NCBI GenBank assembly: GCA_038373865.1
Contig: JAXGGA010001642.1
Span: 62,001-126,000 of the forward strand
Direction: 5' to 3'
DNA from: Uloborus plumipes
Taxonomy: Eukaryota > Arthropoda > Arachnida > Araneae > Uloboridae
Length of the DNA: 64,000 bases
The position numbers and the translations under genes are program-made. Below, one piece after another: positions 5,137 through 56,336 of this stretch (the stretch's first letter is position 1; each line of letters opens with the position of its first letter). The notes under the pieces were generated by a model. It saw nothing but the letters and a program-made list of their open reading frames with translations. It did not search any database and had not been told where the DNA came from.

Positions 5137-5548
5137 CACTGAAAAAAATGAACTGTTGTTTTTATAGTATAATTCTGGCAGCCGATGTTGCAATTTAAAA
5201 CTGAGAAATGCTCAGTAATAAACTGAAAATTTATCGATTTTACAGTTTCTTACTGTAAAGTAAGAAGTTTTAGAGTTTATTGCCGTAAAATTTAGCTCTA
5301 TTTTACTGTAAAAGCAGCAGTATAATAATGGTAGGAGCGGTTCCAGTTTAAAACTGTAACATGCACGGTAATAAACTGTCAAATTAGCAGTTTTACAGTT
5401 TATTACTGTAAAATTAGCAATTTTAGAGTTTATTACCTCAAAGTTGGCAATTGTACAGTTTATCGCCGTAAAATTAGCAATTTTTACAGTTTATTACTAT
5501 AAATTTAGCTGTATCGTACTGTAAAAACAACATTCATATTTTACAGTG
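5137..5548. mobile_element. CACTG-TIR MITE (ACAGT-rich family), copy 1
   Basis: Begins CACTGAAAAAAATGAACTG and ends TTTTACAGTG with TA on both sides (5135-5136, 5549-5550). The interior is a series of half-palindromic blocks such as AATAAACTGTAAAATTAGCA and CAGTATAATACTGGCAGCC. It has the same ends and interior as the elements at 27.6, 43.6-46.1, 54.3-55.0 and 55.9 kb. No coding capacity. The superfamily is uncertain; the TA site suggests Tc1/mariner. Confidence 0.75.
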
Positions 5549-7451
5549 TAGCTTGTACAGTAAAGATAAGTACAAGAAATGGTAAATCTGCAAAAAAAAG
5601 GGAATATGGAAATTTTGCGGACCATTCCATTTTCCTTCTGGCGGCAAATTTTGTATCTTATGCAACGTATCAATTAGCTAAAAGTACAACAAAATAGAAA
5701 AAGTATTTATAGATTTACGTTTAAAACTAACTATTTCTAACAGCATAGACTAGATGCTCATAATTTTTCCAAAAAAATAAGCAACTTGCTTTTGACTGAA
5801 GCATTTTGTAAAACGATGTGCGTGCTGTGTATGTAGGTAAATATTAAATCACGCAAGTTTTACGCTCAAAATTTCAGCTATAAACCGATAAATCATTGAA
5901 TTGGGTAGTGTGCTTTATAGCTAAGCGCCTCATGAAAGTATTGAAGAGGGTTTCAAAGAAGATTTATATTTTCAACAGCAGGTATATTGGTTTATAAAGC
6001 TTGATAAATGCCGACAGATAGCACAACATTCGTAATCATACTATTATTGAATGTTTATTTGTCCAAAACATTTGAAAAACATAATTCACTCATTTCATTA
6101 CCATATGTACTTGTAAAGTGATTAAATAATAACGCTTTTAAATAATTAAAAACTATATTTTACTCTCTCTGACCCGACTTTTTTGCCAGAAAAATGTTCT
6201 TCAAGTTATTAATGTTTACCCATGAAAAACAACGGTATGCAATAGATCATGTTCGTCAGTTTGGCCGTTTTCTTTCTGTTCCAAAATACATAGTAATTTT
6301 GAAAGAAAAGAAACAAAGGTTTATATAAGTTTAACCAATCCCTCTTCGTTAAGTCTTAGGAATTAATGAAACCAATAATATACGTGTCATCGGAACTCGA
6401 TTACTACTTTTGCTTTTTGACCATTAGTGTTTTTTCTTTATCATTATAAGAAACTTATTTTTATCTTTTTTGATTCCTTTCATTAATAATAAAATTTTCG
6501 TTAATATTATTTTCTTTTAATTTTTATTTTGGCTGAATTTAAAATTATTTAGTATAAGTAAATATTTTAAATGGTTTTATAAAATAAATAAAACGGAAAT
6601 TTTTTAATCCATATTGAATTTTTTAAAGTATTTTTGTCTCCTAAAGATTACTTAGTTACATTGATATTTTCAACGCCTCTACTGGCAAATTTGAAACGTA
6701 TAAAATGGGAAATAGTCGTCAAAATTTTAATCTAGCTGATTTTCATTTAAATCAGCGTTACATGTTGTATTTAATAAAATAAAGTAGCCTCGCAAAAAAT
6801 AGAACAAAAGAAAAATAATTAATTAAAAAATATTTTTATTGAATTTTAGGTTATTGTTTTTCTTTTTTTGATACAAAATGTCAAACACTCGTAGCCTTGG
6901 CTGTCAGCATATATTTCACATCTCTTCGGCCTCTTTAGAAAGAGATTTTTTTAACGAGATTAATCACTATTATGAGCTTCACTGTTTTCGTATATTTTAG
7001 TCCTCCAAAATGAATTTCATTCCTTTAAAATATTCAAGAGATCTCTGAACGCCTTCAGAAGAAATAAAAATCATATGCTATATCTCTACTTATCTATAAA
7101 CAAATTAACCAGTTTAATTTTAGCTCTCTGTTAATTATTTTCTAAATAACAAAGATACTTTTTTATTACTTGTGTAGATGTACTTACTATTAGATCCATG
7201 TTGGTAAAGTGGCATGTTGTAAAAAGATTACTCCGCCACCTTTGTTATAGCTGCGATAACTCAAAAGCAGTTTTTTTAGCTTAATTCAGCTGAAACTTGA
7301 AATTTTAATTTCCTAAATCCGCTCGTTGAAAATGACGCTCTTCAGTATTGTGGATGGCAATTCCGCCCTAATATAAACTTTCTCATTAAATAGTAAAAGT
7401 TTATTTGTACTACAGTTAAAACATCAGTTGTAATGTTATGAATACTGGCTA
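5549..7451. other. AT-rich DNA without recognised gene
   Basis: Low-complexity sequence with many stops in all frames. No element ends or RNA gene recognised. Confidence 0.6.
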
Positions 7452-21071: not shown

Positions 21072-21440
21072 TCATGTGGTACCCAGTTGCTTAGCTTCCA
21101 TCGTTTCCCAACCAAGCTGGTGCAAATGTTTACGAATAGTTTCATCACTCACATTGAATCTTAAGGCAAGTGCTTGACATATCTGACTTGAATCCTGCTC
21201 GATTGCCAGCTTGATCTCGTCGTTGTTGACCGTTGATGGTCTCCCGGAGCGAGGTTCATCTTCCAGATTATCATCCTCCGAAGTAAATTTCTTGAACCAC
21301 TTCTGACCCGTCCGTTCAGCTACAGTACCTTCCCCAAAAGCAGTGCATATCTTACGACAAGCTTCTGCAGCTTTGGTACCAAGTTTGAACTCATAAAGTA
21401 AACAAGCACGAATTATTGCGTTTGACATGGCCATACTCAA
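21072..21440 (-). pseudogene. Mariner transposase, N-terminal fragment (122 aa)
   Basis: Encodes the paired DNA-binding helix-turn-helix region. The first HTH is at about residues 8-60 (YEFKLGTKAAEACRKICTAF, then VAERTGQKWFKKF). The linker EPRSGRPS is at about residues 82-89. The second HTH is at about residues 92-112 (SDETIRKHLHQLGW). These are the mariner signatures for recognising the inverted repeats. The frame stops just where the catalytic domain should begin, at the internal deletion, so the first catalytic Asp (usually in a TGDE-like motif) is absent. It might still bind element ends as a truncated protein, but nothing shows expression. Confidence 0.9.
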
Positions 21441-27582: not shown

Positions 27583-27894
27583 CACTAAAAATTGAATGTT
27601 GTTGTTACAGTATAATACAGCTAATTTTATAGTAATAAACTGTAAAATTGCTAATTTAACAGTTCATTACCATGCGTTTTACAGTTTTAAAATGGAACTT
27701 CTGCTTCTAGTATTATACTGTTGATTTTACAATATAATACAGTTAAATTTTACGGCAACAAACTAAAATTGCTAACTTTACAGTAAGGAAATGTAAAATT
27801 GCTATTTTTATTTTATTATTGTGGTTTTTAGTTTTAAATTGGAACCTCGGCTGCCAGTATAATACTATAAAAACAATAGTCATTTTTTGCAGTG
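27583..27894. mobile_element. CACTG-TIR MITE (ACAGT-rich family), copy 2
   Basis: Starts CACTAAAAATTGAATGTTG and ends TTTTTTGCAGTG. Internal blocks such as TACAGTATAATACAGCTAAT and CTCGGCTGCCAGTATAATAC are shared with the other copies. 312 bp. A 95-codon frame overlapping its right end (27819-28106) is element sequence plus flank. Confidence 0.75.
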
Positions 27895-33765: not shown

Positions 33766-35193
33766 CACTGGCGGAAAAAAAAGTCCCAACACCAAGAAAA
33801 AATTGCCGTAGAGTAATGAAATTTGGGTAATACAATTGTCTAGTTAACATGTTTAATTGATTAAATGTACAAGATCAGTGGCTAATTTAAGCTCAAGAAA
33901 ATGCTGTGCAAATGTGAAATTATGTTAATTTAATAGAGGGTGTAACCTCCAGAATTTTGAAGGCAAGCCTGCAAGCGTGCATGCATTATGTCATACAGGT
34001 GCCGAATGTCACTTTGTGGTATGGAGTTCCATGCTTGTTGCACTTGCTGTGTCAATACTAGGACCGTCATTGCTGACTGTGGATGATGCTCGAGGTGCCA
34101 TCCCATGATATCCCATACGTTATCAATTGGAGACAGACCTGGTGATTTTTCAGGTCATGGTAACATGTCAGCACTCTGTAGAGCACTTTGCGTTACAGCA
34201 GCGATGTGAGGGCGAGCGTTATCCGGTTGGAAAACGCCCCCTTGAATGCTACTCATGAAGGGCTGTACTACTGGTTAAATTAACAGACTGACGACAAATT
34301 TTCAGTCAGTGAGTTTGGGATAACTACAAGAATGCCCCTGCTGTCGTAGGAAATTTCTCCAGAGACCATAACTTCAGGTGTGAGTCCCGTGTGTCTAGGC
34401 CGTAGACCGCTTGGATGCAGGCTGTCCCCTGGCCTCCTTCTGACCAATATACAGCCACCACTGGCACTAATTCAGAATCTGTTTTCATCAAAAATTACAA
34501 CAGATCTCCACTCTGACCTCCAGTGAGCTCTGTCGTGGCACCACTGCCGTCGGAAAAGGCAATGGTTTGCAATCAATGGAATACTGGCTACAGGCTGCCT
34601 GGCTCGGAGCTGTCCTTGAAGTAAACAGTTTCTTACCGTTCCTTGGGTCACGACGGTACCAACTGCAGCTCGAATGTCAGCCGCAGATGCAGTACGATGC
34701 GCCACAGCCGTACGCAAGATTCGGCGATCTTCCTTCTCAGTCGTGCCACGTGGCAGCTCGGAACTCGATCTTCTTGAGGTAGTATCATCCCTTGCCCATA
34801 GCTTCCAATAATCATGCATGGTGGAAACATTTCCACCGAAGTCTTTCTGCAATATCGCGAACTGAAAATCCACCTTCTCGTAACCAATTTGTACGACCTC
34901 GTTTAAACTCGGTGAGCTGTTGATAATGGCTTCTTCGTCTTCTTAAAGGTACTCCTGGCTAACATGAACACAATTCGTCAAATTTCACGGAAAAATAATA
35001 GACACGAGCTTCCCAACACGCTTTTAAAACAAGCCTTATTTGCATGTTATGAGTGACGCCAGCTGCGCCACACTTATGCGCGGAACACGAAATTTCAATC
35101 GATGTCATCTTTCAGTTGTATAAACACGCCTACCAAATTTCGTTTATCTAACAAAAGTCTTTCTTGGTGTTGGGATTTTTTTTTCCGCCAGTG
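33766..35193 (-). mobile_element. Tc1-like transposon, 1428 bp, decayed
   Basis: Inverted repeats of about 34 bp: CACTGGCGGAAAAAAAAGTC then CCAACACCAAGAAA, with TA at both borders (33764-33765 and 35194-35195). Near full length for Tc1. The transposase lies on the minus strand with stops and frameshifts. Ends differ at only one or two positions, so the copy is not very old. Confidence 0.93.
33930..34965 (-). pseudogene. Tc1-like transposase pseudogene
   Basis: Reading from about 34965 down, the decayed N-terminal HTH (QLTEFKRG..WLREGGFSVRDIAE) is followed after a frameshift near 34850 by a 133-codon open block (34472-34873). That block holds the second DNA-binding region (RGTTEKEDRRI, TQGTVRN) and reaches the first catalytic Asp in VVIFDENRF. 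Downstream, the second Asp survives in FQPDNARPH (about 34235). The third position reads SPIDNVWD, with Asp where Tc1 (DD34E) normally has Glu. Stops interrupt after DENRF and in the LPWPxKSP-equivalent segment (TGG to TGA). The C terminus ends near NSGGY before 33930. Not functional. Confidence 0.92.
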
Positions 35194-43598: not shown

Positions 43599-43696
43599 CA
43601 CTGTAAAAAGTGAGTGTTCTTTTTACAGTGTAATACAGCTAATTTTATAGGAATAAACTGTAAAAATTGCCAGTTTGACAGTAATAAACGGTAAAA

Positions 43697-45799
43697 TTGC
43701 TAATTTTACAGTTTATTACCGTGCATTTTAGACTTTTAGACCACAACAGCATTAGGTTTGGGATTAAGTTTGATATGCACAAAGACAAAAATTTTAGGTT
43801 TGTACCTAATTTCAGAAATACTGATTTTGTCGCACTCAGGCAGAGTTTGAAAGTGGTTTTTTCATCAGGTTTGGACAATAGCGATGTAAATTTGCAGTGG
43901 ACAGAGTTTAAGGAAAAACTAGCAAAAACAGTTGGAGATTTTGTTCCTTTTAGGAGAAAAGGGTTAAACACAAAAATTTGGCCCATGTGGTTCACTAGGG
44001 AAACTAAGGATGCTCTAAATCGTAAGCAAGCTTCTTTTCGTCGATTAAAAGAAACTGGTCACAGCGCAGACAGGCTACAGTATTGTGAGGCTAGGCGTAG
44101 TTTTAAGTATTTGGTACGGTTTCAGAAAAGAGAATTGGAACAAAAGCTGGCAGATAATATTGACAGGAATCCAAAGGAGTTTTTTGCATACGCAAATTCT
44201 GGGAAAGTTCGAAATAGTCAAATTGGGCCACTAGTAGATGAGCATGGAAATTTAATTCAGAATGATGGTGATATAGCAAATGTTCTAAATGACTTTTTTT
44301 CCAGTGTTTTTAACGATAACTGTATCTCAACAGTTGACACAAGCAAGACACAAGCTACTACACAGCTTGAGGACTTTGTATTTTCCAGGGAGGACGTTTT
44401 ACTTTATTTGAAAAAAATTAAAACCACAAAAGCTCCGGGACCAGATAATATTTATCCAAAAATTCTAGTAGAATGTGCAGAGGAATTAGTTGACGCTATA
44501 GTTAATATATTCAATGCTTCGTATAACTCAGGGATAGTGCCAGAGGACTGGAAACTAGCTAACATTACACCACTCTTCAAGAAAGGGTCTAGAGGTAATG
44601 CAGGAAATTATAGGCCTGTGAGTCTGACTTCAGTGGTATGTAAAATTTTTGAAACATTGATCAAAATTAAGATTATGAATTTCTTAGAAAATAATGGGCT
44701 GTTGAGTAGTTTGCAGTATGGTTTCAGAAAAGGTAAATCGTGTGCTACTAATTTATTACATTTCTACGACAAGGTTACCTTGGCTTTAGATAGCAAAAAA
44801 TGCGTAGATGTTGTTTACATAGATTTTCAAAAAGCTTTCGATAAGGTACCGCATGTAGCACTACTTAGCAAATTAGCTGGTATAGGGATAGGAGGTAAAA
44901 TTCTAGTTTGGGTTAGGAATTGGCTGACAGGAAGGAAACAAAGAGTAGTTGTTAGGGGTAACTATTCTAAATGGAGTGAAGTTTTAAGTGGGGTTCCCCA
45001 AGGATCAGTTTTAGGTCCCCTTTTGTTTATTATTTTTATGAATGACATTCATGAAAATGTTTCTGGAAACATGAATTGTTTTGCCGATGATGTCAAACTT
45101 ATGGGGGTTGTAGAAAATGACGAACAAATAAATCAGCTGCAACAGGATTTGGATCATATTACTAAATGGGCAGACAAGTGGGGTATGGCAGTTAATGTTG
45201 GGAAATGTCAAGTGCTGCATTTCGGTCATGGAAATAAGCATACAAGCTATTATTTACAGGGTTCAGTCATTAGTAGGGCAGATAATGTTATGGATCTAGG
45301 TGTCTTAATAAATCAGGATTTCAAGTCCAGTCAACAGTGCAGCATAGCTAGTAACAAAGCCAATAGGATGCTTGGGTTTATTAATAGATCTATTTCAAAC
45401 AAATCTAAGAAGGTTCTTCTGCCTCTATATAGAAGTTTGGTAAGACCTCATTTGGAGTACGCTGTTCAGTTTTGGTCTCCTTATCTGAAGAAAGACATTA
45501 ATTTATTGGAAAGGGTACAAAGGAGGGCTACAAGGTTAGTGAATGGACTTTCTAATTTAGACTATGATTCCAGACTTAGAATGCTTAATATGTATAGTCT
45601 TGAGCAACAGAGAATTGAGCAACGGAGAACAAGGGGTCATTGTTTTAAGCTGTTTAAACCTCAGGCGAACCTGGAAATTCGAAAAAATTACTATTTTAGC
45701 AGGGTAGTGGGAACTTGGAACAGCTTACCGGAAGAGGCGGTAAAGAGCAATGGAGTAGATGGCTTTAAGAGGGCCATTGATCTTCATTGGGGTCTTTAA
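43697..45799 (+). CDS. LINE reverse transcriptase, 700 codons, endonuclease truncated
   Basis: RNA-directed DNA polymerase of a non-LTR retrotransposon, which copies the element into a nicked target. Codons 1-14 come from the MITE and supply the ATG. LINE sequence starts at codon 15 with DHNSIRF, the tail of the apurinic endonuclease domain whose SDH motif ends there. The RT domain spans about residues 240-520: KAPGPD (245-250), RPVSL (306-310), GFRKGKS (342-348), motif A YIDFQKAFDKV with the first catalytic Asp (about 376), motif B GVPQGSVLGPLLF (432-444), and motif C CFADDVKL with the Asp pair at 464-465. The thumb and C-terminal region follows (LEYAVQFWSPY, about 587-597; TWNSLPEEAV, 673-682). 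No stop or frameshift interrupts it, so the insertion is young. It lacks target-nicking activity on its own. I assign it to the CR1/Jockey group by motif spelling; the exact clade needs a tree. Confidence 0.93.
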   Translation: MLILQFITVHFRLLDHNSIRFGIKFDMHKDKNFRFVPNFRNTDFVALRQSLKVVFSSGLDNSDVNLQWTEFKEKLAKTVGDFVPFRRKGLNTKIWPMWFTRETKDALNRKQASFRRLKETGHSADRLQYCEARRSFKYLVRFQKRELEQKLADNIDRNPKEFFAYANSGKVRNSQIGPLVDEHGNLIQNDGDIANVLNDFFSSVFNDNCISTVDTSKTQATTQLEDFVFSREDVLLYLKKIKTTKAPGPDNIYPKILVECAEELVDAIVNIFNASYNSGIVPEDWKLANITPLFKKGSRGNAGNYRPVSLTSVVCKIFETLIKIKIMNFLENNGLLSSLQYGFRKGKSCATNLLHFYDKVTLALDSKKCVDVVYIDFQKAFDKVPHVALLSKLAGIGIGGKILVWVRNWLTGRKQRVVVRGNYSKWSEVLSGVPQGSVLGPLLFIIFMNDIHENVSGNMNCFADDVKLMGVVENDEQINQLQQDLDHITKWADKWGMAVNVGKCQVLHFGHGNKHTSYYLQGSVISRADNVMDLGVLINQDFKSSQQCSIASNKANRMLGFINRSISNKSKKVLLPLYRSLVRPHLEYAVQFWSPYLKKDINLLERVQRRATRLVNGLSNLDYDSRLRMLNMYSLEQQRIEQRRTRGHCFKLFKPQANLEIRKNYYFSRVVGTWNSLPEEAVKSNGVDGFKRAIDLHWGL

Positions 45800-45876: not shown

Positions 45877-46099
45877 ATTTTAGACTTTTAAACTGGAACC
45901 TCTGCTGCCAGTATTATACAGCTAAATTTTACGGCGATAAATTCTAAAAGTACTAACTTTGCAGTAAGAAACTGTAAAATTGCTAGTTTAACAGTTTAAT
46001 ACGGTGCAATTTACAGTTTTAAATTGGAACCTCGGCTACCAGTATTTTACTGTAAAAACAACAATTCATTTTTTGCAGTGTAGACGCCTGCACTTTTTT

Positions 46100-46440
46100 C
46101 AACATACGTCTATAAAACATCTTCGAGATGTTCAGTCTCAGGATGCCATGATCGAGCTGTGGGTGCATTTGCTTCAGTTCTGCCTTAGCCCTTTCTTATG
46201 GGCGGTAACTCATTGCATATTACCCAGCTTTTGCCTTCAAATTTCGAGTTGAGCCGCATCATGGTTTGCGGATGCTCGCTGGTAAGGTATATTCATTTCA
46301 TCTACCAGTTTGTTGGCAATCTTAGCTACAATAAGAGGATCATTGAGTCCAGGCTCGGTCAATGACTATTCCTGACTGAGGAGTCCAGAATAGGACGAAA
46401 CTGCAGTCTCACGATGTCATGACCGAGCTGTGGGTTTAAT
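46100..46440 (+). mobile_element. Retrozyme-like repeat, 271-bp monomer with hammerhead ribozyme
   Basis: CAGTCTCA(G/C)GATG(C/T)CATGA and CGAGCTGTGGGT occur at 46133-46164 and again at 46404-46435, an offset of 271 bp. The second occurrence is the 3' part of a complete hammerhead ribozyme. The first has the same 3' part but lacks a recognisable core. The predicted cleavage sites (after 46137 and 46408) would define a 271-nt monomer. Size, repeat layout and ribozyme type match animal retrozymes and Penelope-like elements as a class. Outer borders and a target duplication were not found. Confidence 0.65.
46351..46430 (+). ncRNA. Type-I hammerhead ribozyme A
   Basis: All core elements are present in order. 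CTGAGGA is at 46376-46382 (position 7 of CUGANGA is free). Stem II is GTCC/GGAC (46383-46386 with 46393-46396, loop AGAATA). GAAA is at 46397-46400. Stem III is 2 bp (A46400-T46407, C46401-G46406) with loop TGCA, and the cleavage triplet GTC ends at 46408. Stem I pairs 46373-46375 with 46409-46411, then after an internal loop GCTCGGTCA (46353-46361) with TGACCGAGC (46420-46428), nine perfect pairs. An internal loop in stem I is where natural hammerheads make their activating loop contact. Self-cleavage would be expected between C46408 and T46409. Activity is not shown. Confidence 0.85.
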
Positions 46441-46969
46441 TGTTTATAGTATGGTTATTGTTGTAACTCCACCATTAATTAGATGGCACCATAAGCGACC
46501 AAAACAATAACTTTAACTTCGACTTGGCTCTCGTTACTTTTGTACTTTTGCGTAGTCGTCTCTGGTCGTGTTTCATTGTCCTCATGTATGTTTGTATCTG
46601 TTAAATGTGTAATAAAACTTAAAATACTACAAATGGGTCTTTCCTAAAACTTCCCATCCTATCGTGTTCCTACAGTTATATTTAGAATTTGAATTTCTGA
46701 TGTCACTTTTAAGTAACTTGTTTTCTTCGTTCGCCTGTCTCATCTTAATTTTTAATTTCTGTTTTTTCCGGTGACCATTTATTAATCTCAGGTCTTTAAA
46801 AATAAATATGCAATCATTTTGGACGAGGTATCTTAGGCATGTGTAGGGTGGCACAACGTCAGTTATACATGAAGTGTTAATTTCATTTACAGAAACATTC
46901 ATCTTATCTACAACAGTGATTAACCGCCCCTAAGCAAAGGCTAAGGCAGGAATATGCAATACACCGCCG

Positions 46970-47048
46970 ACTCGTTCATTTCGATCCATGGACTGCAGCT
47001 TCGGGCTTATTATGCCCTCTTCAGCATGGAATACGAAAATAAGCGAGT
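46970..47048 (-). ncRNA. Hammerhead ribozyme B', minus strand, variant core
   Basis: In reverse complement: CTGAAGA (plus 47018-47024), a perfect stem II GGGC/GCCC (47014-47017 with 47003-47006), then GAAG instead of GAAA, and GCTGCAGTC with the cleavage triplet ending at 46991. The A15.1 to G change would turn the conserved A-U pair into G-U and probably reduces or abolishes cleavage. It lies in the opposite arm of the palindrome to ribozyme B. Confidence 0.65.
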
Positions 47049-47112
47049 TGGAGGCAGAAATCCTCTTATAGAGCAAAGAGGATTTTAATCTATAAGAGGA
47101 TTTTTGCCTCCG

Positions 47113-47190
47113 ACTCGTTTACTTTCGTTTTCCATGCTGATGAGGCATAATAAGCCCGAAACTGCAGTCCTTGGATCGAAATGAACGAGT
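47113..47190 (+). ncRNA. Type-I hammerhead ribozyme B, plus strand
   Basis: CTGATGA (47137-47143), stem II GGC/GCC with one bulged C (47144-47146 and 47154-47157), and GAAA (47158-47161). Stem III is A47161-T47168 and C47162-G47167 with loop TGCA, and the cleavage triplet GTC ends at 47169. Stem I is CCATG/CTTGG-type pairing (47131-47136 with 47170-47175, one mismatch). It is extended past internal loops by TTTCG/CGAAA (47123-47127 with 47177-47181) and ACTCGTT/AACGAGT (47113-47119 with 47184-47190). The core is intact. The imperfect stem II may weaken it. Confidence 0.8.
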
Positions 47191-47219
47191 TGGCGGTGTA
47201 TTGCATATTCATCTTATCC

Positions 47220-55939: not shown

Positions 55940-56336
55940 GTAAAAATGGATGTTGTTTTTACAGTATAAAACAGCTAATTTTATAGTAAAAAACTGCTAA
56001 AATTAATAATTTTACAGTAGAAAACTGTAAAATTTCTAATGTTACAGTACTAAACTGTAAAATTGCAAATTTTACTGTAATAAAGTACAAAATTCCTAAT
56101 GTTACAGTTTATTACCGTGCATTTTACAGTTTTAAACTGGAACCTCTGCTGCTGGTATTATACTGCTGGTTTTATAGTATAATACAGCTAAATTTTGCGG
56201 CAATGAACTGTAAAATTTCAAAATTTACACTAAGAAACTAAAATTCCTAGTTTTAGAATTTATTATTGGTCAGTTTACGGTTTTAATTTTGCTGCCAGTA
56301 TTTTCCTGTAAAAACAACAATTCACTTTTTGCAGTG
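55940..56336. mobile_element. CACTG-TIR MITE (ACAGT-rich family), copy 5
   Basis: Interior blocks TTACAGTATAAAACAGCTAA, AATTTTACAGTAGAAAACTG and CTGGAACCTCTGCTG match the family. Right end TTTTTGCAGTG at 56336. The left end is decayed (no clear CACTG), so the left border is approximate. Confidence 0.7.

Follow-up and report, generated by a model that had tools for sequence, protein, structure and literature searches.

The window, a 64,000-nucleotide stretch of the Uloborus plumipes genome, carries what an initial annotation had read as a hammerhead ribozyme in a short repeated monomer, which raises the questions of whether the ribozyme is genuine, what kind of element bears it and how such an element comes to be inserted. 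The hammerhead is genuine. It was matched by the Rfam covariance model RF00163 (Hammerhead_1), a check that the annotation had proposed, at 45.3 bits (E 2e-8; gathering score 34), and it is complete as claimed, each named part being in place: CUGANGA (46376-46382 by sequence reading), a GUCC/GGAC stem II (46383-46386 with 46393-46396), GAAA (46397-46400), a stem III of two pairs enclosing UGCA (46402-46405) and GUC (46406-46408), with the predicted cut site between 46408 and 46409. The three inner pairs of stem I (46373-46375 with 46409-46411) stood as described, but the outer stem is longer than the nine pairs first given to it, since these (46353-46361 with 46420-46428) are followed by a bulged A and four further pairs (46363-46366 with 46416-46419). 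With this long stem I, the ribozyme is predicted to fold at -37 kcal/mol (z -4.31), and 0 of 200 shuffled sequences were equally stable. An exact search for the hammerhead core pattern in viral contigs gave 0 matches.

Relatives of this copy were sought in the window's own genome (1,424,420,891 bases in 25,906 contigs). Rfam gave at least 55 matches, 54 of them over the cut-off, among 74 scored of 186,141 candidates, and a DNA search with window positions 46085-46440 gave at least 155 matches among 40 scored of 3022 candidates. Whole-genome pattern searches allowing up to 2 mismatches located the A-type core at 1538 places (769 + 769) and a 3' "tail" motif at 7321 places (3772 + 3549), with 0 places for the reversed-pattern controls of both. 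The copies fall into two subfamilies: A, with a 271-nt unit, to which the window copy belongs, and B, with a 268-nt unit; a comparison of one unit from each (L058 and L101) showed 204 of 265 aligned positions to be identical. Tandem arrays reach 18.6 units in L080 (98% matches by TRF), 9.3 units plus an inverted 0.76 unit in L070, and 5.9 units plus an inverted 0.49 unit in L071. The search for related and tandem copies that the initial annotation had advised was thus positive, with thousands of places and long arrays, and its term "retrozyme-like" was well chosen. As side observations, the B-type post-cut motif recurs every ~157 bp at C514:170087-172699, which looks like a satellite derived from a shortened unit, and other sequence, possibly captured or inserted later, lies between retrozyme pieces at L053:1150-1460 and 885-1098.

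The ribozyme stems appear to have been maintained at the RNA level. In an alignment of 62 of the 63 ribozyme rows (L059 was excluded), 85.4% of cells were paired in the standard hammerhead structure, and cells changed on both sides numbered 120, compared with 45.7 +- 6.5 in shuffled alignments (0 of 500 reached 120) and 22-40 in structures whose partner strand had been slid. Columns 25/64, for example, show compensatory changes from GC to UA and to AU, and columns 36/46 one from CG to GC. Two of the five covariation measures were not above shuffles, namely pairs changed on both sides (12 versus 10.7, with 154 of 500 shuffles reaching 12) and further pair types (33 versus 32.3, with 233 of 500 reaching 33). 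Because rows were chosen by their core motif, invariance of the core proves nothing, while the stems were free to vary; loop positions 17-21 were conserved in at least 90%. RNAalifold recovered only three stem II pairs from this alignment, and covariation was therefore counted on the named structure instead. Whole units are also predicted to be self-paired: the A monomer (46138-46408) folds at -90 kcal/mol (z -2.95), with 1 of 200 shuffles equally stable, and the B monomer is likewise more stable than its shuffles (z -5.12).

The window copy itself spans ~1.16 units. Its 3' end lies at +37 after the cut by alignment and at +39 when read against other copies, its last ~12 nt having diverged, and no target duplication was seen around it by eye. 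No frame of at least 120 aa overlaps 46133-46447, and the element has no frame for a reverse transcriptase (RT) or GIY-YIG endonuclease. The initial annotation had noted that the 3' half of the motif recurs 271 bp upstream, which is correct (46404-46435 resembles 46133-46164), and had gone on to propose that two cleavages would release a monomer. The latter did not hold: the upstream repeat consists, by sequence reading, of the post-cut part plus CAGTC and lacks the CUGANGA...GAAA core, so that one cut is predicted in the window copy, not two. This copy therefore looks unable to release a monomer; two-cleavage release could occur in multi-unit arrays such as L080, which has 17 motif-complete hammerhead cores.

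Other mobile sequences are found in the window. A LINE reverse transcriptase with a 703-aa open frame (RVT_1 by Pfam, E 3e-36), which we take to be CR1-like, occupies 43688-45799 and runs out in ATTTGTATTTGTATA repeats at its 3' end, which lies ~330 bp before the retrozyme. Transposase fragments of the Mos1/mariner type (21072-21440, minus strand; HTH_48, E 5e-20) and the Tc3 type (34472-34942, minus strand; HTH_Tnp_Tc3_2, E 4e-9) are present, as are arrays whose near-palindromic 30-bp unit is built around ACTGTAAAATT...AATTTTACAGT, at 5375-5509 and 55975-56108, with similar units at 27749-27804 and 43641-43712.

How these elements are inserted is best seen where two arms meet. With arms mapped on circular unit coordinates, many insertions proved to be head-to-head pairs in which 5' ends are central and 3' ends point outward: 34 such pairs were found in 53 loci detected by their hammerhead, and 21 in the 35 loci with a match from a tail-found set of 38 stretches near the head of the 7321-place list (one locus can contribute more than one pair). 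Outward ends are concentrated at two sites downstream of the cut, a short one at +39 in A or +35 in B and a long one at roughly +80 to +85 in A or +76 to +86 in B, and 92 of 113 ends lie within bins 25-44 or 70-94. Inner ends, by comparison, are scattered in the hammerhead-found set and crowded round the ribozyme in the tail-found set. In this tail-found set, six of 72 inner 5' ends (L083, L085, L092, L103, L104 and L108, of which L103 and L104 are duplicates) coincide at position 232 of the B unit (268 nt), immediately ahead of the ribozyme core; this may be an alignment effect.

The two outward ends of a pair are usually different. Defining short ends as 27-44 and long ends as 68-92 after the cut, and leaving out duplicates (L013, L087, L096, L104) and reference loci (L101, L102), we classified 51 of 65 head-to-head pairs, 14 being unclassifiable. 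There were 26 short/long, 21 long/short, 4 long/long and 0 short/short pairs, so that ends were discordant in 47 of 51, compared with 25.3 expected from end frequencies (binomial p 1.2e-10). Discordance was found by each route of discovery (23/25 for hammerhead-found, 14/16 for tail-found and 10/10 for DNA-found pairs, the last of which were picked for a visible inverted arm and thus test the ends and not the frequency of pairing). Exact flank duplications of at least 7 bp (7-14 bp) surrounded 32 of the classifiable pairs, as opposed to 58 of 2550 mismatched flank pairings, in a comparison that took in the outermost 6 nt of the element at either end, for pairs and controls alike; in a stricter test with hand-set boundaries, the counts were 9/20 and 5/380. 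Head-to-head arms, two favoured 3' ends and flank duplications are thus directly visible in the genome.

One such pair lies in the window itself, downstream of the ribozyme (Table 1), and this second element, together with the head-to-head arrangement and the two favoured ends, goes beyond what the initial annotation contained. Both of its ribozyme cores are, by our reading, damaged, and neither was reported by Rfam at E<=1. An Rfam match to MIR1888 at 47033-47128 (40.6 bits; gathering score 72) was rejected, as it spans the palindromic centre of the inverted pair; a similar sub-threshold miRNA match was obtained on a palindromic Penelope-like element (PLE), L121.

Table 1. Retrozyme-related features of the window.
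Feature	Position	Strand	Basis
Single-arm A-type retrozyme copy of ~1.16 units, with its 3' end close to the short site	46133..~46447	+	Sequence, alignment
Upstream repeat of the post-cut part, without hammerhead core	46133..46164	+	90.6% identity over 32 nt
271-nt unit, upstream cut-site equivalent to hammerhead cut; predicted self-paired RNA	46138..46408	+	Sequence, fold
Outer stem I, 5' strand (9 pairs, bulged A, 4 pairs)	46353..46366	+	Sequence and fold
Type I hammerhead ribozyme	46370..46414	+	Rfam RF00163
Catalytic core CUGANGA - stem II - GAAA - stem III - GUC	46376..46408	+	Sequence reading; 62-row alignment with compensatory changes
Outer stem I, 3' strand	46416..46428	+	Sequence and fold
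12-bp target-site duplication ATTCATCTTATC, left copy	46897..46908	+	
B-type head-to-head pair; long 3' end on the left arm (-), short one on the right arm (+)	46909..47206	.	Outer limits from duplication
B-type hammerhead-like core, - arm, GAAG replacing GAAA	46991..47024	-	Authors' reading
B-type hammerhead-like core, + arm, damaged stem II	47137..47169	+	Authors' reading
12-bp target-site duplication ATTCATCTTATC, right copy	47207..47218	+	

By anatomy, the window feature is an animal non-LTR retrozyme, and the family, as its sequences present it, is a non-autonomous, non-coding retrozyme with a type I hammerhead and a unit of 268-271 nt. It has in common with the animal retrozymes described by Cervera and de la Pena 2020 (PMC7229834) a type I hammerhead, here with an intact core, and head-to-tail arrays; their RNAs measure 170-400 nt, and the units found here (271 and 268 bp) occur in multiple and tandem copies and are within the ~150-450 bp that we took as typical. 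Also shared are a predicted self-paired RNA, coexistence with PLEs and target duplications of >4 bp (as in the 32 pairs above), and the family is non-coding at our threshold of at least 120 aa per frame. The accessible text of that paper describes tandem repeats but no head-to-head arms with a pair of preferred 3' ends, and the words "inverted", "tail" and "head-to-head" are absent from it. We found no description of head-to-head retrozyme insertions or of their two ends in the open-licence literature, supplements aside. Plant retrozymes share the non-coding hammerhead element and a proposed circular RNA intermediate, but they are described as having LTRs, PBS, PPT, type III hammerheads and 4-bp duplications (PMC4918200, PMC7229834), unlike the type I hammerhead and the flank matches of 7-14 bp seen here.

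The closest parallel to the insertion anatomy is instead found in PLEs. These elements are described as carrying inverted pseudo-LTRs (pLTRs), with an optional 31-bp tail on one of them, and target duplications of 8-10 bp in some copies and none in others (PMC3846280). The accessible text of the same source attributes head-to-head junctions to self-priming and not to two primers, and reports no cross-mobilisation between PLE types in a rotifer. For an anole PLE, two adjacent internal RT start sites bound the tail, and the protein cuts and extends both strands; ribozyme mutants had no effect on in vitro insertion there, and no start-site difference between strands was seen (PMC11167929). In the anole element the hammerhead cut lies 26 nt inside the ORF and reverse transcription begins 111-118 nt inside it (PMC11167929); the distance from cut to RT start is, by our subtraction, 85-92 nt, compared with ~+80 to +85 for the long retrozyme end. 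The Penelope/Poseidon type and the retrozyme thus share a hammerhead upstream of two RT starts, a tail on one arm, inverted arms and, in many copies, a short target duplication. They differ in that the retrozyme has no RT/endonuclease ORF and its unit alone forms arrays, and in that PLE hammerheads are described as minimal variants lacking helix III or loop contacts (PMC7761336), while that of the retrozyme combines a 2-bp stem III with a long stem I. With PLE-type anatomy (inverted arms, a tail optional on one, a duplication) in 47 of the 51 classifiable pairs out of 65, the retrozyme, to judge from its insertions, inserts like a PLE without being one.

PLEs are, by their detected sequences, abundant in this genome: Pfam gave 69 GIY-YIG matches, and a search with a PLE probe found open frames of up to 855 aa (150 scored of 3063 candidates). 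One PLE insertion (L121, C12517:32000-33200) is a perfect 1188-bp head-to-head palindrome with arms 100% identical, in which, by eye, the long end is on the left and the short end on the right, and the repeat TTCAAATATAGT flanks both sides, its left copy ~8 nt off the arm. Counted from a hammerhead-like motif that we recognised by reading and for which Rfam gave no match, its long end lies at +79 and its short end at ~+53 to +55. Its tail has no similarity to that of the retrozyme (blastn E<=1), which makes it a parallel case and not a partner. The perfect identity of its arms, not seen in the retrozyme pairs compared, means that this palindrome is either very young or made by self-priming, and does not speak against the latter. 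Among other PLE frames located through PF01541, L063 and L067 (endonuclease ahead of RT, by our reading) were rejected as candidate partners, their retrozyme matches being <=21 nt with E >=0.018. Some PF01541 endonuclease matches lie head to head, and many of equal score, e.g., L067-L069, contain one in-frame TGA, possibly for selenocysteine. PLEs of spiders and clams encode selenoproteins.

The lengths and likeness of the arms bear on the template. Of 114 segments, 27 are longer than one unit. If RT starts downstream of the cut, a cut linear unit could give arms of only ~39 or 82 nt, so that arms exceeding one unit need a ligated circle, an uncut multimer or later DNA amplification of units. 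Median identity was 0.978 between units within an arm (dominated by L080, with 171 of 250 comparisons, and L070, with 45), 0.952 between the two arms of an insertion and 0.916 between different loci. Units within the long arm of L070 had a median identity of 0.944, compared with ~0.86 for arm versus arm and 0.862 for other loci, and the corresponding values in L028, over 60 nt, were 0.973 within the arm and 0.867 between arms. The arms of these two insertions are as unlike as other loci, which points to separate RNAs or sources and argues against self-priming there, and a single template for both arms was rejected as a general rule; arm-versus-arm identity was 0.978 in L071 and 0.988 in L033. 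A footprint of cleavage was sought in the genome and not seen, exact counts giving no clear excess of template ends at the B cut: upstream of the B post-cut anchor, counts were 1051, 811 and 572, and the loss per nt was 0.086 over the three positions spanning the cut, as against 0.070 over the next five. Among tail-found inner ends, 9 of 72 were within 3 nt of the cut, versus ~1.6 expected, a number that includes a twice-sampled place and palindromic joins.

PLE machinery most likely inserts these retrozymes, as far as their ends reveal it, and we consider it highly probable that the overall explanation, a retrozyme family whose RNA is cut into units and inserted by a PLE-like protein, is correct. 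Speaking against it are the long/long and the unclassifiable pairs, the two covariation measures no better than shuffles, the negative outcomes of the searches for a cleavage footprint and for an autonomous PLE with the retrozyme tail, the window copy's apparent inability to release a monomer, and the rotifer and anole findings on self-priming, cross-mobilisation, ribozyme mutants and start sites. We infer transcription, cleavage, circularisation and the enzyme as follows. Multi-unit copies would be transcribed and their RNA cut into units by the hammerheads, the units then being closed into circles, probably by a host ligase. A Penelope-like protein (RT plus GIY-YIG endonuclease) would bind circles or uncut multimers and cut the two target strands with a stagger of roughly 7-14 bp. 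Each exposed 3' target end would then prime one cDNA; counted downstream from the hammerhead cut, one of the two would usually start near +39 and its counterpart near +82. Joining of the cDNAs back to back at variable 5' ends would produce a head-to-head insert with a target duplication, and an arm passing more than once round its template would yield head-to-tail units. In its most specific form, paired PLE RTs would act on one staggered break with one proximal and one distal start, often on separate RNAs, and arms longer than a unit would be rolling-circle copies of a hammerhead-made circle; on this form we are evenly divided.

Alternatively, the hammerhead might be a relic within ordinary satellite DNA, whose repeats multiplied through unequal exchange and segmental duplication and never passed through RNA. 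The longest arrays do carry shared variants, as from exchange (12 shared and 8 singleton in L080; 17 shared and 21 singleton in L070), which suggests later exchange or a multimer template, and L012 and L013 have ~1.7 kb in common, so that some copies have spread by DNA duplication. As a general account this is nevertheless very improbable in view of the thousands of places, the duplicated flanks of 32 of 51 classifiable pairs and the preference for two 3' ends, and of the variants in L071 (5.9 units), where 20 are singleton and 1 is shared, as expected from rolling-circle copying or, more generally, from units that were identical at insertion. Mobilisation by a LINE such as CR1 with twin priming, and not by a PLE, seems very improbable to us, even though LINE twin priming also yields inverted pieces and the LINE in the window ends close to the retrozyme. 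That LINE ends in ATTTGTATTTGTATA repeats absent from the retrozyme ends, and a PLE insertion of matching anatomy (C12517) exists in this genome. Two internal start sites, one per arm, are to our knowledge not a known feature of LINEs. In favour of a LINE, the candidates put forward in a review of 2024 are LINEs or PLEs (PMC11722881), and the 15-bp duplications of Nematostella hammerhead repeats have been likened to those of LINEs (PMC4918200).

A closer relationship to PLEs is also conceivable, in which the unit would be the pLTR of an autonomous PLE family and its copies would be solo and tandem remnants of that pLTR. PLEs are described as bearing pLTR hammerheads, tails and inverted pLTRs (PMC3846280, PMC11167929), and the long end lies at a similar distance from the cut in the C12517 PLE (+79 by our count) and the retrozyme (+80 to +85). 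We regard this as unlikely, since arrays built of nothing but the unit reach 18.6 copies, the PLE probes used matched none of the examined retrozyme loci (tblastn E<=0.01), and no autonomous PLE sharing the retrozyme tail was found in a search that is far from complete.

The hammerhead alone would be ordinary. In the accessible text of earlier work, the mover of animal retrozymes is left open between LINEs and PLEs (PMC7229834; PMC11722881, 2024), and for one retrozyme family the insertion ends described here point to PLEs. The rule of one proximal and one distal start can be applied to any retrozyme-bearing genome and to a purified PLE system. If the reading of paired RTs on one staggered break is true, retrozymes would be trans-mobilised parasites of PLEs, and their insertions would constitute a readable record of PLE integration.
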